Assembly: GCA_014859225.1 (NCBI GenBank)
Contig: JACUUP010000088.1
Coordinates: 1-5,922 of the forward strand
Direction: 5' to 3'
DNA from: Candidatus Aerophobota bacterium
GTDB taxonomy: Bacteria > Aerophobota > Aerophobia > Aerophobales > B3-G15
Length of the DNA stretch: 5,922 nucleotides
Below are positions 1,017 through 5,877 of the stretch, piece after piece (positions within the stretch are counted from its first letter, which is position 1; the number at the start of each line of letters is the position of its first letter). A program made the translations under genes and the position numbers. The notes beneath the pieces are model-generated. The model made no database searches, had not been told where the DNA came from, and saw nothing but the letters and a program-made list of their open reading frames with translations.

Positions 1017-1191
1017 TTATTTTTCAATACGTCCATAGTCCGCGTCAAGCCATTTAACGGTGTAACCCAACACTCCCTTGTTGGATCATTATATATGAAT
1101 TGATGCGTATATATATTAAGGATTTAAAAATTGAGAAGGAAAATTATTGGAAGCTTTTTTCTTCCTCTGGCTAAGTATTTTATCAAAGGTT
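1017..1191. other. Convergent intergenic region
   Basis: This gap separates the 3' ends of the mscS-like gene and the minus-strand operon. It is A/T-rich from about 1085 onward, with TATATA tracts at 1090-1095 and 1108-1116. It contains an 18-base hairpin (CCAACA, loop CTCCCT, TGTTGG, 1067-1084) with no U-tract on either strand, a candidate minus-strand terminator (1126-1167), a short protein-like open stretch on the minus strand (1017-1085) and a 28-codon plus-strand open frame (1131-1217). No confident gene or RNA is present. I see no clear intrinsic terminator for the mscS-like transcript. Confidence 0.6.
1126..1167 (-). terminator. Candidate operon terminator downstream of the deacylase
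   Basis: On the minus strand, 25 bases past the deacylase stop, GAGGAAGAAAA (1167-1157) can pair with TTTTCCTTCTC (1143-1133) at 9 of 11 positions around a 13-base loop. It is followed by AATTTTT (1132-1126). A smaller alternative hairpin, GGAAG/CTTCC, lies within it (1165-1149). The stem is A/U-rich and imperfect, so this is a weak intrinsic terminator at best. Its position just after the last operon gene is what makes it credible. Confidence 0.35.
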
Positions 1192-2805
1192 TTATGGCTG
1201 GAGCTGTAAAAGGTTAGCCTGTTTAAATAAAACTTTCCCTGGCAAAGAGCCGGTATATGTGCCTTTCTCCACGGCAGTTTCCCCTGATACAAGAACATAC
1301 TCTATACCTTCAGGATACCGCTCTGGGTCCTTGTAGGTTGCAAAATCTCTTATCTCATCAAGGTTAAATACAACTATATCCGCAAAAAAATTTTCCTTAA
1401 TTAGCCCTCTATTTGTAAATCCCAATTTTTGATTGGGAAGGTAGGTCATTTTGCAAATAGCTTCTTCCAACGATAACAATTTCTCTTCCCGCACATATTT
1501 TCTAAGAATTCGAGGAAATGTCCCGTACAATCTCGGATGAGGTTTTCCTCCTGAGTAAATCCCATCGCTGCCAAACATAACCATAGGTTGTTTCATTATC
1601 CTTCGCATATTTTCCTCGCACTGCTGAAAAACCACCATAGTTACCCTACCCTTCTCTTCTATTAGAAGGTCAAATAATAGTTCTGCAGTATCTTTTCCGC
1701 TTAGGGTTGTAATTTCCTGAAGGCTTTTTCCTTCCATATCTTTATTTTGCTCCGTGTATACCCAGCTTATAAATATATTTTCCCATCCTGCATTCTTCAC
1801 AATGTTGTCCCAACCTTTAACAGGGCGGGCAAAATCCTTTTTTATTTTCTCTCTAATCTCATATTTTTTTAGTTTTCCAAGCATAGCCTCCAGTCCGCCT
1901 TCAAGAACCCAGGGGGGCAAAAGAGCCATTAGCATGGTGCTTCCTGCAAGATAGGGATATGCATCACAGGTAACATCCAGTCCATTTTCTCTTGCCTTTA
2001 GAATCAGGTTTAAAACAGCATCAATTTTACTCCAGTTTTTCTTTCCACATATCTTAAGATGAGATATATGAACAGGGACACCTGCTTGTCTTCCAACATC
2101 AAGTGCCTCTCTGATTGATTCTATCATCTCATCTGATTCGCTTCGTATATGGGTGGTATAAATTCCTCCCTCTTTTGCCACTACCCGGCAAAGCTCTACA
2201 AGTTCCTCAGTTTGTGCATAGCTTCCTGGAGGATATATAAGACCGGTGGATAAGCCTATGGCACCCTGGCGTAAAGATTGAAGCAGAAGGTCCTTCATCT
2301 TTGCCATCTCTTTTTTAGCTGGTCTTCTATTGTCAAATCCCATTACCGCTATTCTTAATGCCTGATGGCCAACATAGCTTGCAACATTCACTCCTGTCCC
2401 ATTTTTTCCTAACTGGTTGAGGTATCCACCCATGGTAGTTAGGTTCCAGAAAGATTCTGTTTTGCCAAGTAAAGACTCAACATACTTTCTCAACATATGT
2501 TTTCTGTCTTCACTTACCGGTGCAAGAGAAAATCCGCAGTTGCCAATAACCTCAGTTGTTACCCCCTGCATTAGTTTGGGTTTATTGGACGGCTCTTTTA
2601 GAAGCTCGGCATCTGCATGGCTGTGAAAATCAACAAACCCTGGACAAACTATAGAACCTCTAACATCAATAACTTTCTTTGCCGAAAACTCATTCAGGCT
2701 ACCAATTTTGCTTATCCTCTCATCAAGAACACCAACATCTGCCCTCCAGGCTGCCTTTCCTGTTCCATCAACAACATATCCATCTTTTATTATTAAATCA
2801 AACAT
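1192..2805 (-). CDS. N-acyl-D-amino-acid deacylase (D-aminoacylase, amidohydrolase superfamily)
   Basis: A 537-residue cytoplasmic zinc amidohydrolase. The family hydrolyses N-acyl-D-amino acids to a carboxylate and the free D-amino acid; some relatives act on N-acetylated amino-sugar acids or D-glutamate derivatives. The N-terminus (MFDLIIKDGYVVDGTG) is the typical start of the small beta domain. Metal and active-site residues by family pattern are H61 and H63 in FVDFHSHAD, C90 in GNCG, H219 in TTHIRSE, H248 in ISHLK and D414 in FGSDG. The diagnostic HPRLYGTFPR follows at 423-432. The C-terminal strands ADIVVFN and VLVSGE return to the beta domain. Length is normal for the family and no signal peptide is seen. 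An in-frame TAA just upstream makes the ATG at 2805 the first possible start, yet no Shine-Dalgarno sequence precedes it. It is the last gene of the operon, 52 bases after the Eda-like gene. The family is very secure. The acyl and amino moieties of the substrate are unknown; an N-acetyl amino-sugar acid is plausible from the neighbours. Confidence 0.93.
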   Translation of the reverse strand: MFDLIIKDGYVVDGTGKAAWRADVGVLDERISKIGSLNEFSAKKVIDVRGSIVCPGFVDFHSHADAELLKEPSNKPKLMQGVTTEVIGNCGFSLAPVSEDRKHMLRKYVESLLGKTESFWNLTTMGGYLNQLGKNGTGVNVASYVGHQALRIAVMGFDNRRPAKKEMAKMKDLLLQSLRQGAIGLSTGLIYPPGSYAQTEELVELCRVVAKEGGIYTTHIRSESDEMIESIREALDVGRQAGVPVHISHLKICGKKNWSKIDAVLNLILKARENGLDVTCDAYPYLAGSTMLMALLPPWVLEGGLEAMLGKLKKYEIREKIKKDFARPVKGWDNIVKNAGWENIFISWVYTEQNKDMEGKSLQEITTLSGKDTAELLFDLLIEEKGRVTMVVFQQCEENMRRIMKQPMVMFGSDGIYSGGKPHPRLYGTFPRILRKYVREEKLLSLEEAICKMTYLPNQKLGFTNRGLIKENFFADIVVFNLDEIRDFATYKDPERYPEGIEYVLVSGETAVEKGTYTGSLPGKVLFKQANLLQLQP

Positions 2806-2816
2806 AAAAATTTATG
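2803..2816 (-). repeat. A/T-rich inverted repeat spanning the deacylase start codon
   Basis: CATAAA and TTTATG flank a two-base centre, so the deacylase ATG is the end of one arm. In RNA the arms could form a weak hairpin hiding the start codon. As DNA it is a short dyad. There is no Shine-Dalgarno site between this and the preceding gene. Confidence 0.4.
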
Positions 2817-2857
2817 GTTTTTCAGAACTCTCTCATCATCATGCAGGTTTTAACCGT

Positions 2858-3511
2858 TTAGCCAGCTCGTCCCTTTTTTACCTCCTCTATAAACTTCCTG
2901 GCATTTTCACTGATAATGTTATATTTTCCCTGTGCTATAGCTTTTTTATCAACCAGGGAACTTCCAACAGAAATGGCGGCTGCTCCGGCTTTAATAAAAT
3001 CTTTAGCGTTAGTAAGGTCAATCCCACCTGTTGGATTTAAAAGAATCTGGGGTAGGGGTGCCTTTATTGCTTTTATATAATCCGCCCCGCCCAGATTACC
3101 TGCGGGAAAAACCTTTACCACATCAGCTCCCGCCTCCCAGGCTGTAAGTATCTCTGTAGGAGTCATGGCGCCAGGAATGGCTAGTATGCTGTAGCGTTTG
3201 CAAAGCTTTAACATCTCAAGGTTAAGACACGGTCCCACGATAAACTTCGCTCCTGCCAGAATGCAGGCTCTTGCAGTTTCTGCATCCAAAACAGTGCCTG
3301 CTCCAAGGAGAACATCTTCTCCCAACTTTATGCTTACTTCTCCCATAACCTCAATTGCTCCCGGAACAGTCATGGTAATCTCAATGGTATTTATACCCCC
3401 TTCCCTTATTGCATCAACCACCTTCAGAGCCTCATCAGAAGATTCAGCTCTAACAACAGGTATAACTCCACCTTCAAGTAAAACCTTCAAGTTCTTGCTT
3501 TTTTCATACAT
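2858..3511 (-). CDS. eda: KDPG/KHG-type class I aldolase (Eda family)
   Basis: A 217-residue TIM-barrel aldolase of the 2-dehydro-3-deoxyphosphogluconate / 4-hydroxy-2-oxoglutarate family, cytosolic and usually trimeric. It cleaves a 2-keto-4-hydroxy acid to pyruvate plus an aldehyde (glyceraldehyde 3-phosphate from KDPG, glyoxylate from KHG) through a lysine Schiff base. Visible motifs are the general acid/base E44 in IEITM, GAGTV (70-74), AIPGAMTPTE (111-120) with the PG turn, the Schiff-base lysine K133 in VVKVFPAG, the phosphate/substrate loop PTGGI (160-164) and VGSSLV (182-187). Length matches the family. The Arg that follows the catalytic Glu strand in E. coli Eda (EVTLRT) is replaced here by TMTVP, as I recall also in the Thermotoga enzyme, so this alone does not argue against KDPG activity. 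ATG at 3511 has a perfect AAGGAGG seven bases upstream. The gene follows the HpaI-type gene by 16 bases. Family secure; physiological substrate inferred only from context. Confidence 0.92.
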   Translation of the reverse strand: MYEKSKNLKVLLEGGVIPVVRAESSDEALKVVDAIREGGINTIEITMTVPGAIEVMGEVSIKLGEDVLLGAGTVLDAETARACILAGAKFIVGPCLNLEMLKLCKRYSILAIPGAMTPTEILTAWEAGADVVKVFPAGNLGGADYIKAIKAPLPQILLNPTGGIDLTNAKDFIKAGAAAISVGSSLVDKKAIAQGKYNIISENARKFIEEVKKGRAG

Positions 3512-3527
3512 AACTTATCCTCCTTCT

Positions 3528-4292
3528 TCACTCTTTTAATCTTTTCACAATCTGAGAGCAAGCCTCATAGTAAATACCAACATCTACAGAAAATGATATA
3601 TATTGAACCCCTGCCTTTTTCCATCTTTTAGCCTGCTCAAGATTATCCACAAAAGTTCCAGTTTTCACTCCCGCCTCTTTTGCAATACGAACCGCCTCCT
3701 CCATTTTTTCAGCTACTGCAGGATGGTCTACCTTTCCTGGAACGCCGCAGGACTGGGAAAGGTCATATGGCCCAAGAAAAATTATATCTATCCCCTCGAC
3801 CTCAAGAATATCTCTTAAGTTTTTTACCCCCTCAACTCCCTCAATATGGACAATTACCACTATTTCCTCGTTTTCTTTCGGGATGTACTCATCCGAGGGA
3901 ACTGAGGAGTAGTTTGCCGCACGGACAAAACGGCAAAGACCTCGCTCCCCCTGCGGGGAAAATCTTGCTGCCCTTACAGTTTTTCTGGCATCTTCCTTAT
4001 TTGAGATATGGGGAACCTCTATTCCCTGGGCTCCTATATCAAGTGCCCGAAGGATATGGGTGGGATTATTTTCCAGAACTCTTACCACGGGAGTTATATC
4101 GCTTAGCTCAGCAGCCCGAATGAGATTTTGAGCACCCTCAATGGAATGAGGTCCGTGCTCAAGGTCTATGATAACAAAATCAAATCCGCTGTAGGCTGCA
4201 ATCTCCACGGTTGCAGGGTCAGTTATTTTAACAAAAGGGCCATAAACTACCCTGCCCTCCTTAAGCTCTCGCATCATTTTGTTTTCTCGCAT
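3528..4292 (-). CDS. HpcH/HpaI-family class II pyruvate aldolase
   Basis: A metal-dependent TIM-barrel aldolase of 254-255 residues, the usual length. Relatives cleave 4-hydroxy-2-ketoheptanedioate (HpaI), 2-keto-3-deoxy-L-rhamnonate (RhmA) or 2-keto-3-deoxyglucarate (GarL) to pyruvate plus an aldehyde. Counting from the upstream Met, key sites are IIDLEHGP (42-49, with catalytic H47), VVRV with substrate-binding R72, GAQGIEVPH (88-96), GERGL (116-120), the metal ligand E152 in HIEGVEG and metal ligand D178 in GPYDLSQS. Two adjacent ATGs exist. The one at 4295 is only two bases from AAGGAG, whereas 4292 has a five-base spacer and gives MRENK, the usual family beginning, so 4292 is preferred. 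The gene sits between the PLP enzyme and Eda-like genes. Which aldehyde acceptor it uses cannot be told; a 2-keto-3-deoxy sugar acid fits the neighbours. Confidence 0.92.
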   Translation of the reverse strand: MRENKMMRELKEGRVVYGPFVKITDPATVEIAAYSGFDFVIIDLEHGPHSIEGAQNLIRAAELSDITPVVRVLENNPTHILRALDIGAQGIEVPHISNKEDARKTVRAARFSPQGERGLCRFVRAANYSSVPSDEYIPKENEEIVVIVHIEGVEGVKNLRDILEVEGIDIIFLGPYDLSQSCGVPGKVDHPAVAEKMEEAVRIAKEAGVKTGTFVDNLEQAKRWKKAGVQYISFSVDVGIYYEACSQIVKRLKE

Positions 4293-4297
4293 CATCT

Positions 4298-4303
4298 CTC
4301 CTT
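4298..4303 (-). promoter_or_regulatory. Ribosome-binding site deciding between two adjacent ATGs
   Basis: AAGGAG on the minus strand lies two bases before the ATG at 4295 and five before the ATG at 4292. The spacing favours 4292 as the main start of the HpaI-type aldolase. Confidence 0.6.
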
Positions 4304-4332
4304 ATAATTTTACTTGGTAACAATTTTTATCA

Positions 4333-5403
4333 TTACTCTCTCACCTTAACTTTATCTTCCAGCTTGAATTCTGTGCTGTAGGCGAAAAGAGCCGGAAATC
4401 CTCCTGTATGAAGGAAGATAACTTTTTCTCCTCTCTTAATTTTTCCTTTCCTGATATGGTCAATCAGCCCTGACATAGCTTTACCTGTGTACACAGGGTC
4501 AAGGAAGAGCCCTTCTTTTTCGGCAACAAGCTTGATGGCTTCTACCCCTTCCTTTGTTACCTTGCCATATCCTTCTCCTACATATTCACCATAAGATATG
4601 ACTTCAGAAGGCTCTACCCTAACATCCAGACCCAGAATCTCAGCAGCCATATTAGCAATCTTAGCCACGGCAGGCGGAACATCTTCAGCCCATATTTTGT
4701 CTAAGGGATTAATTCCTATTATGGGAAAATCAAGCCCGAGGTACTTAGCTCCAAGAACCAATCCTGCCTGGGTGGTATCGGCAGCTGCTACATAAAGATA
4801 GGTGGGTTTTAGGTTCATATCTATTAGCTGTTCATATAACTCCAGAAGACAGTTTACATAAGCTATAGCATCAAGTCCCACATCTTCTATGTTAGCCATA
4901 CGAGCCAGGTAAGGACGATGTCCTTTAGCTTTTAGACCCTCGGCTACCTCTTGCATTATATGTGTCTGCTCTGCCGGAGATTTTGCCTCAATAATTTCCA
5001 CATTGGCTCCCAGCAAAAGGTCAAGTAAAAGATTTCCCTGAGGTTGAAAGTCTATATCTCCACGAACTTTTCGCAAAACAAGATAAGCTTTTAGACCTAA
5101 TTTGCTGCAAGCAGCAGCCATTTGCCGGCAGTAATTTGATTGAGCTGCTGCTCCTGCCACCACTGAGTCTGCTCCCATGTTTAGAGCGTGAGCTAAAATA
5201 AACTCAAACATACGGGTCTTGTTCCCTCCAAAGGCAAGACCGGTTAAATCATCTCTTTTGAAGTAAATCTCAGGACCCTTTAGTGCTTCTGAAAGTCTTG
5301 ATGCTGCCTCAAGTGGTGTGGGAAGGTTGGCTAAATGAACCCGGGGAAGTTTTCCTATACGCTCTTTAAGTCTTTGAGTTTTTTCTTTTTCATATTTAAA
5401 CAT
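4333..5403 (-). CDS. PLP-dependent lyase of the D-cysteine desulfhydrase / ACC deaminase family
   Basis: A 356-residue fold-type II PLP enzyme. Known members are D-cysteine desulfhydrase, 1-aminocyclopropane-1-carboxylate deaminase and L-cysteate sulfo-lyase, which release ammonia by elimination or ring opening through aminoacrylate-like intermediates. Visible features are the opening LANLPTPLEAASRLS (24-38), FKRDDLTG (48-55), the PLP lysine K62 in FGGNKTR, AAQSNYCRQMAA (86-97, cofactor/substrate loop), LDPVYTGKAMSGL (301-313, with the family Tyr near Y305) and FLHTGGFPAL (330-339). Where relatives usually carry a Gly-rich phosphate-binding loop (GSGGT-AGL) this protein has YVAAADTTQAGL (204-215). 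ATG at 5403 has AGAGG five bases upstream, overlapping the ridA-like stop codon, so translation is probably coupled. No signal peptide is present. Adjacency to a RidA gene supports an enamine-producing reaction. D-cysteine desulfhydrase is the default name, but the operon makes an amino-sugar-acid or other D-amino-acid ammonia-lyase role at least as likely. Confidence 0.88.
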   Translation of the reverse strand: MFKYEKEKTQRLKERIGKLPRVHLANLPTPLEAASRLSEALKGPEIYFKRDDLTGLAFGGNKTRMFEFILAHALNMGADSVVAGAAAQSNYCRQMAAACSKLGLKAYLVLRKVRGDIDFQPQGNLLLDLLLGANVEIIEAKSPAEQTHIMQEVAEGLKAKGHRPYLARMANIEDVGLDAIAYVNCLLELYEQLIDMNLKPTYLYVAAADTTQAGLVLGAKYLGLDFPIIGINPLDKIWAEDVPPAVAKIANMAAEILGLDVRVEPSEVISYGEYVGEGYGKVTKEGVEAIKLVAEKEGLFLDPVYTGKAMSGLIDHIRKGKIKRGEKVIFLHTGGFPALFAYSTEFKLEDKVKVRE

Positions 5404-5412
5404 TTTTTCCTC

Positions 5413-5877
5413 TTAATCTTTTACTTTGACTACCATCTCCAGCTCACAGGTTATGTTCCTTGGTAGACTGGATGTTCCAAGAGCACAGCGGGCATGCTTT
5501 CCTTTATCACCAAATATCTTTTCTAAAAGCTCGGATGCCCCATTAATTACCTCAGGTTGTTTTTCAAAATCGGCAGTGCAGTTCACAAATCCTCGCACCT
5601 GAACAATCTCCTCTATCTTATCCAGACCTCCCACAAGGTTTTTCACCGCAGCAAGGCAGTTAAGAGCACATATCTTTGCTGCCTCGTAGCCTTCTTTTAG
5701 TGTTTTTTCTGCACCTACCTTACCTACATACACGAGCTTACCTTCTACGGAAGGCCCCTGACCTGAGCAAAATACAAGATTGCCCACTTTCTTAGCTGGG
5801 ATATAAGCTGCCGCAGGACTTGGCACCTCAGGAAGTGTAATTCCCAACTCTTTTAGCTTTTCCTCATAACCTAACAT
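5413..5877 (-). CDS. RidA/YjgF-family reactive enamine/imine deaminase
   Basis: A 154-residue protein of the RidA (YjgF/YER057c/UK114) family, cytosolic and normally a trimer with active sites between subunits. RidA hydrolyses enamine/imine products of PLP enzymes, such as 2-aminoacrylate, to 2-keto acids and ammonia. The length and pattern (LGITLPEVPSPAAAYIPAKK, then GNLVFCSGQGP at 32-42) fit the roughly 150-residue subfamily rather than the 128-residue E. coli-type RidA. The catalytic arginine equivalent to E. coli R105 is present as R130 in HARCALG, and the C-terminal CELEMVVKV supplies the usual acidic residue (E145). ATG at 5877 is preceded by AGGGAGG with seven-base spacing. It is the first visible gene of the operon, nine bases before the PLP enzyme. 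The pairing suggests it clears that enzyme's product. The Arg indicates true deaminase activity; the exact substrate is inferred. Confidence 0.92.
   Translation of the reverse strand: MLGYEEKLKELGITLPEVPSPAAAYIPAKKVGNLVFCSGQGPSVEGKLVYVGKVGAEKTLKEGYEAAKICALNCLAAVKNLVGGLDKIEEIVQVRGFVNCTADFEKQPEVINGASELLEKIFGDKGKHARCALGTSSLPRNITCELEMVVKVKD

Follow-up and report, generated by a model that had tools for sequence, protein, structure and literature searches.

A five-gene operon in Candidatus Aerophobota with a possible role in the breakdown of N-acylated 2-amino-2-deoxy sugar acids

The window analysed here, 5,922 nt in length, is the complete contig JACUUP010000088.1 (G000:C213) of a Candidatus Aerophobota bin (GCA_014859225.1; 1.8 Mb in 273 contigs, 91% complete). 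Five minus-strand open reading frames (ORFs) form a compact block, transcribed from 5877 to 1192, that encodes a RidA protein, a fold-type II pyridoxal 5'-phosphate (PLP) lyase, an HpaI-type aldolase, an Eda-type aldolase and a D-aminoacylase-family deacylase (Table 1). An earlier, sequence-only reading of this DNA had described five genes lying in one direction with gaps of 9 to 52 bases, and all of the ORFs are present as described: from RidA to the deacylase, the gaps are 9, 37, 16 and 52 bases, every ORF starts with ATG, and purine-rich stretches precede several of the starts. Moreover, the Pfam matches (YjgF_endoribonc, PALP, HpcH_HpaI, Aldolase and Amidohydro_3, respectively) lie far above their gathering cut-offs. 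The arrangement is not due to chance.

Table 1. Minus-strand features of the window, in order of transcription
Feature	Position	Strand	Basis
Rid1-type RidA, PF14588, 154 aa	5413..5877	-	Pfam, Rid alignment, relatives
Fold-II PLP lyase, D-cysteine desulfhydrase/D-cysteate sulfo-lyase family, 356 aa	4333..5403	-	Pfam, NCBIfam, alignment, tree
Class II HpcH/HpaI-type aldolase, 255 aa	3528..4295	-	Pfam, NCBIfam, PDB relatives, phylum orthologs
Eda-type KHG/KDPG aldolase, 217 aa	2858..3511	-	Pfam, NCBIfam cut-offs passed
D-aminoacylase-family (Amidohydro_3) deacylase, 537 aa	1192..2805	-	Pfam, solved relatives, residue alignment
Weak terminator-like hairpin	1149..1165	-	27 bases past deacylase stop; such sites not clearly commoner than in shuffles

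The earlier labels of RidA protein and fold-II PLP enzyme hold at the level of family, and both can be refined. For the PLP enzyme, the best NCBIfam model is CuyA (D-cysteate sulfo-lyase), but the score is 315 bits where the cut-off is 450, and on this ground true CuyA identity was rejected. The catalytic set of D-cysteine desulfhydrase (DCyD) is retained, namely, the Lys of GGNK, the QSN motif, the Tyr of GYG, the Tyr–Thr pair of PVYT, and HTGG. Taking the functionally important residues of the Salmonella enzyme from the literature (PMC3344862), alignment to the structures 4d8t and 7ysk matches the PLP-binding Lys, Ser78/Asn79, Tyr261, Tyr287, Thr288 and Thr315, with a Tyr at the position of DCyD His80. 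Identity as a 1-aminocyclopropane-1-carboxylate (ACC) deaminase was also rejected: the TIGR01274 score is 196 bits against a cut-off of 392, and Glu295, which follows the catalytic Tyr in ACC deaminase, is replaced by Thr, and the HTGG motif is kept, in a comparison that also took in Leu322 of ACC deaminase. Because the Lys, Ser/Asn, Tyr–Tyr and Thr set of DCyD is retained and the Glu295 of ACC deaminase is not, the enzyme is expected to be a D-amino-acid β-eliminase.

This PLP enzyme belongs to a rare group. None of the 16 other genomes of the host phylum that were searched contains it, and in a broad search of 385 genomes it exceeds threshold in only three others. When 84,980 species genomes were scanned with exact 8-mer peptide patterns, which give a lower bound, at least 17 relatives at 47–53% identity were returned. 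The nearest two (51–53%), both by identity and by path in the tree, lie on a Spirochaetes contig (L022) and a Stahlbacteria contig (L023); they form a fully supported pair, whereas the fork joining this pair to the window protein is open. Among 147 genomes of the L023 phylum, one other has the gene above threshold; among 392 taken from the phylum of L022, none other does. Both nearest relatives sit in sugar loci: that of L022 has a carbohydrate ATP-binding cassette (ABC) transporter and a Zn-dehydrogenase around it, and the L023 block comprises a Zn-dehydrogenase, a RidA protein (58% identical to that of the window and adjoining the PLP gene), the PLP enzyme, an SMP-30 lactonase, a FucI-like protein and a sugar ABC ATPase.

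The RidA protein is of the PF14588 type, which we equate with Rid1 on the strength of its Arg and the family names, with no tree behind the equation. The conserved HAR and E of solved Rid proteins have their counterparts in the Arg of its HARCAL motif and the Glu of CELEM. In the Rid family, the conserved Arg marks imine hydrolysis (PMC4433059), and the protein is predicted to be a 2-imino/2-enamino acid hydrolase. Besides the L023 protein, relatives include a Planococcus Rid protein (54%) and, in a genome of the host's order (G012; locus L162), a RidA that is 86% identical over the 42 aa present on its contig and is followed directly by an HpaI-type gene (76%).

The HpaI-type aldolase falls below every NCBIfam equivalog cut-off (191, 163 and 150 bits for HpaI, GarL and KDR, versus 369, 407 and 441, respectively); it is presumed to be a 2-keto-3-deoxy sugar acid aldolase. 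Its orthologs in the host's order are 62–76% identical and are found in sugar contexts or adjoining RidA: in G003, the ortholog (65%) is followed directly by a gene resembling 2-keto-3-deoxygluconate (KDG) kinase, and in G007 it (62%) lies within a block of sugar ABC, IclR and Zn-dehydrogenase genes, the families of which were read by eye. Eda passes both PRK06552 (246 versus 238 bits) and TIGR01182 (197 versus 156 bits), and shares 76% identity with its counterpart in a second genome of the host's family and 54–72% with others of the order. A tight cluster of an M20 deacylase, Eda and an alanine-racemase-like gene also occurs in a further genome of that family (L166; G001:C146, 8245-11227).

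The deacylase retains the metal-binding and catalytic residues of D-aminoacylases (the HSH motif, Cys90, His219, His249, Lys251, Tyr283, Asp414 and Arg425), and among solved structures it matches PpOngB (PDB code: 9kb1) at 1e-72. The pocket residues Ile190, Cys253 and Gln394, equivalent to Phe191, Met254 and Met346 of AfDam, are too variable among relatives to be informative. In the Spirochaetes genome of L022, a distant deacylase adjoins Gfo/Idh, sugar ABC and class III aminotransferase-like genes (L047; G386:C431; families by eye).

Taken together, the genomic context links several of these enzymes to sugar acids. With confidence just short of even, we tentatively propose that the operon serves to break down a 2-acylamino-2-deoxy sugar acid (an N-acyl 2-amino-aldonate of D configuration, or something closely related), for which we infer the following route, both in its substrates and in the order of its steps. 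The D-aminoacylase-family enzyme would first deacylate the substrate; from the resulting free 2-amino-2-deoxy acid, a D-amino acid, the fold-II lyase would then eliminate the C3 hydroxyl, yielding a 2-enamino/2-imino-3-deoxy acid. The Rid1 protein would hydrolyse the imine to the 2-keto-3-deoxy acid and ammonia; finally, either the HpaI-type aldolase would cleave the keto acid directly to pyruvate and an aldehyde, or a KDG kinase encoded elsewhere in the genome would phosphorylate it, such that Eda could release pyruvate and an aldehyde. The operon is ordinary in its parts and unusual in their combination.

A close, characterized precedent is the ong cluster of Pseudoalteromonas, in which OngB deacetylates N-acetylglucosaminate, the fold-III enzyme OngC deaminates glucosaminate to KDG, and KdgK phosphorylates KDG; the RidA protein OngD is essential, albeit in a role that is still unknown (PMC9537276). 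The two systems share a deacylase of D-aminoacylase-like family, an ammonia-releasing PLP enzyme, a RidA protein and an outlet through a 2-keto-3-deoxy acid. They differ in the fold of the PLP enzyme (II versus III), in the lack of OngB Ser292 in the window deacylase, in the RidA protein (Rid1 type and 154 aa, versus 127 aa for OngD), and in that the window operon has two aldolases and no visible kinase, transporter or regulator. These features place the operon outside the ong group, although it may work in the same way. The sequence-only reading had proposed a job related to this oxidative amino-sugar route, and the logic of deacylase, PLP lyase, RidA and KDG/KDPG (2-keto-3-deoxy-6-phosphogluconate) aldolase indeed matches, with related partial clusters elsewhere that contain KDG kinase, Eda, sugar dehydrogenase, lactonase and sugar transporters. 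What lacks support is N-acetylglucosaminate as the specific substrate: Ser292 of OngB binds the C3 hydroxyl and Gln298 the C5 hydroxyl, and an S292T substitution leaves OngB with about 1.3% of its kcat/Km, whereas the window deacylase has Thr290 at the Ser292 position. Identity as an OngB ortholog was rejected for the same reason. Overall, the observation on which that reading was built is confirmed, its interpretation is partly supported and the substrate is unproven.

Two further systems resemble the operon. Predicted glucosamine oxidation clusters of Natrarchaeobius contain a glucose dehydrogenase, a DGL-like ammonia-lyase, a RutC/Rid protein and IclR (PMC12343721); they share with our proposal an oxidative amino-sugar route via a PLP ammonia-lyase, a nearby RutC-family (Rid) gene and an Entner–Doudoroff end, with the caveat that the pathway is itself only predicted. 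On a plasmid of Planococcus lenghuensis (L182; NZ_CP019642.1, 80240-89070), genes for IclR, the Rid1 protein mentioned above, a KDG-kinase-like protein, Eda, an SSS (sodium:solute) symporter, Gfo/Idh, MBL, an ArgE/DapE-type M20 deacylase and a class V PLP enzyme lie together. Rid1, Eda, a deacylase and a PLP enzyme thus occur in one operon with the same logic and other folds; the deacylase is M20, the PLP enzyme is class V, a kinase and a symporter are present, and HpaI is missing. We found no published function for this plasmid operon, which looks like an undescribed acylamino-sugar-acid operon. Genome G007 likewise carries Eda, Gfo/Idh and a 42% identical MBL gene side by side, with an M20 gene farther on. 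Should the sugar-acid proposal for the window be correct, oxidative amino-sugar breakdown would reach beyond the characterized marine gammaproteobacterial pathway into an uncultured, small-genome phylum, the ammonia-lyase step would have arisen repeatedly on PLP folds that are unrelated, a rare D-cysteine desulfhydrase subclade would gain a substrate, and there would be a clear case of a Rid1 protein that acts as an enzyme within a pathway.

The sequence-only reading had further suggested that a class II aldolase acting on an unphosphorylated 2-keto-3-deoxy acid would remove the need for a kinase, and the host's own genes do not support this. There is no KDG kinase gene within the window; instead, one of the four PfkB proteins in the bin, on contig C241, has the KDG kinase of Thermotoga maritima as its best solved relative (E-value 1e-57), and the bin contains no PF01081 protein other than the operon Eda. 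With these two genes, a kinase-plus-Eda route is open to the host, so that it has no need to bypass the kinase. The HpaI family, in which the window aldolase has PDB relatives, includes enzymes such as GarL and YfaU that use 2-keto-3-deoxy acids in unphosphorylated form, and the window aldolase may add an unphosphorylated branch. A stricter variant, compatible with the sugar-acid proposal, would have HpaI cleave the unphosphorylated acid and confine Eda to 4-hydroxy-2-oxoglutarate or a side product. The family precedent and the lack of a kinase in the operon speak for it; however, with a KDG-kinase-like gene in the host, no Eda other than that of the operon, and an HpaI ortholog that adjoins a KDG-kinase-like gene in G003, we regard it as rather unlikely. 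We give the same low probability to the boldest form of the idea, a kinase-independent route for N-acylated amino-sugar acids in this uncultured phylum that pairs a DCyD-like fold-II enzyme turned 2-amino-2-deoxy-aldonate ammonia-lyase with an HpaI aldolase cutting the unphosphorylated acid. If true, it would represent a further, independent recruitment of a PLP fold to this step, beside the fold-III OngC and the DGL-type enzymes; the papers searched contained no description of a fold-II PLP enzyme acting on glucosaminate.

A number of observations weigh against the sugar-acid proposal. The full five-gene set recurs nowhere among the genomes examined, and none of the loci around the best deacylase matches in other genomes carries the other four genes. 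Conservation of the neighbourhood, the lack of which the sequence-only reading had named as its refutation, is thus largely wanting for the whole set; the sub-blocks described above, with their sugar-acid genes, are nonetheless conserved. No transporter, dehydrogenase or regulator is visible in the window, because the contig ends only 45 bases upstream of RidA. Moreover, in the deacylase, Thr290 is of D-aminoacylase type, and the position of OngB Gln298 is not alignable, the insertion domain being much longer than in AfDam. Its relatives (about 40–51% identical) often lie in peptide, D-aminopeptidase, threonine-synthase-like or diaminopropionate-lyase contexts. The closest found outside the host (51%; L110, G008:C44, 1850-4723), in the host's order, is directly preceded by a threonine-synthase-like fold-II PALP gene and an MFS gene; others adjoin a diaminopropionate ammonia-lyase and the M20 hydrolase YgeY, or oligopeptide ABC transporters and DppA (by-eye sequence reading). 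Because of these neighbours, a plain D-amino-acid role for the deacylase is plausible.

Extended to the whole operon, such a role would have the deacylase free a D-amino acid that bears a leaving group at the β position (D-Ser, D-Thr, D-Cys or diaminopropionate), from which the PLP lyase would form 2-aminoacrylate or a homologue for RidA to clear; the aldolases would merely be co-transcribed, serving other sugar acids or 4-hydroxy-2-oxoglutarate. In addition to the deacylase residues and contexts, this explanation gains from the clustering of RidA with D-cysteine desulfhydrase in diverse bacteria (PMC4433059) and from the changing neighbourhood of Eda within the phylum. The sequence-only reading had objected that plain N-acyl-D-amino acid use leaves the two aldolases unexplained. 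That argument is fair, as neither is needed for pyruvate or 2-oxobutyrate, but both Eda and HpaI are native to the phylum and shift between neighbourhoods, and because of this their co-location is weaker evidence than it looks. Against the plain route, a second family of the phylum has RidA next to HpaI, so that the link to the aldolase is not random, and the PLP relatives closest to the window enzyme occur in sugar loci. On balance, we consider it somewhat unlikely.

The neighbours of other PLP relatives also count against a sugar acid and bear instead on a sulfonate. Eleven relatives from Latescibacterota and Gemmatimonadota, which form one clade in the tree, directly precede a TauE/SafE-like gene, a call made by identification in L025 and by sequence start only in the other loci; the loci are L025, L026, L028-L032, L034-L036 and L038, and in most a Gfo/Idh gene stands ahead of the PLP gene. 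Additionally, plasmid homologs (about 41–44% identical) adjoin taurine ABC genes, or TauE and sulfite oxidase. The Latescibacterota/Gemmatimonadota clade may be one of unannotated sulfo-lyases, and owing to both sets of neighbours a sulfo-lyase function is plausible for part of the family. For the window itself, this would mean a D-cysteate-type sulfo-lyase that acts on an N-acylated sulfonated amino acid and releases sulfite, in keeping with CuyA as the best NCBIfam model. The score is under the CuyA cut-off, however, the window contains neither an exporter nor a sulfite gene, the aldolases would be left without a role, and the contigs of the two nearest relatives (L022 and L023) lack TauE; we judge this explanation improbable. 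With the D-cysteine desulfhydrase/CuyA family, the window enzyme shares its fold, its catalytic residues and an expected β-elimination of D-amino acids; it differs in falling under the equivalog cut-offs, in having Tyr for His80 and in the sugar-locus neighbours of its closest relatives.

The operon cannot be extended, since the window is a complete contig and no bin contig overlaps its right end significantly (searches with the last 120 bases gave matches of chance size only). Misbinning was considered and rejected as unlikely, because the composition fits the bin (G+C content 0.415 for the contig and 0.416 for the bin; tetranucleotide profile r = 0.96) and clear orthologs of Eda, HpaI and RidA exist within the phylum. 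These orthologs mark three of the five genes as native to the host's lineage; the operon was either put together there or lost around it. On the opposite strand, an MscS-family mechanosensitive channel gene (207-1016) is convergent with the operon.

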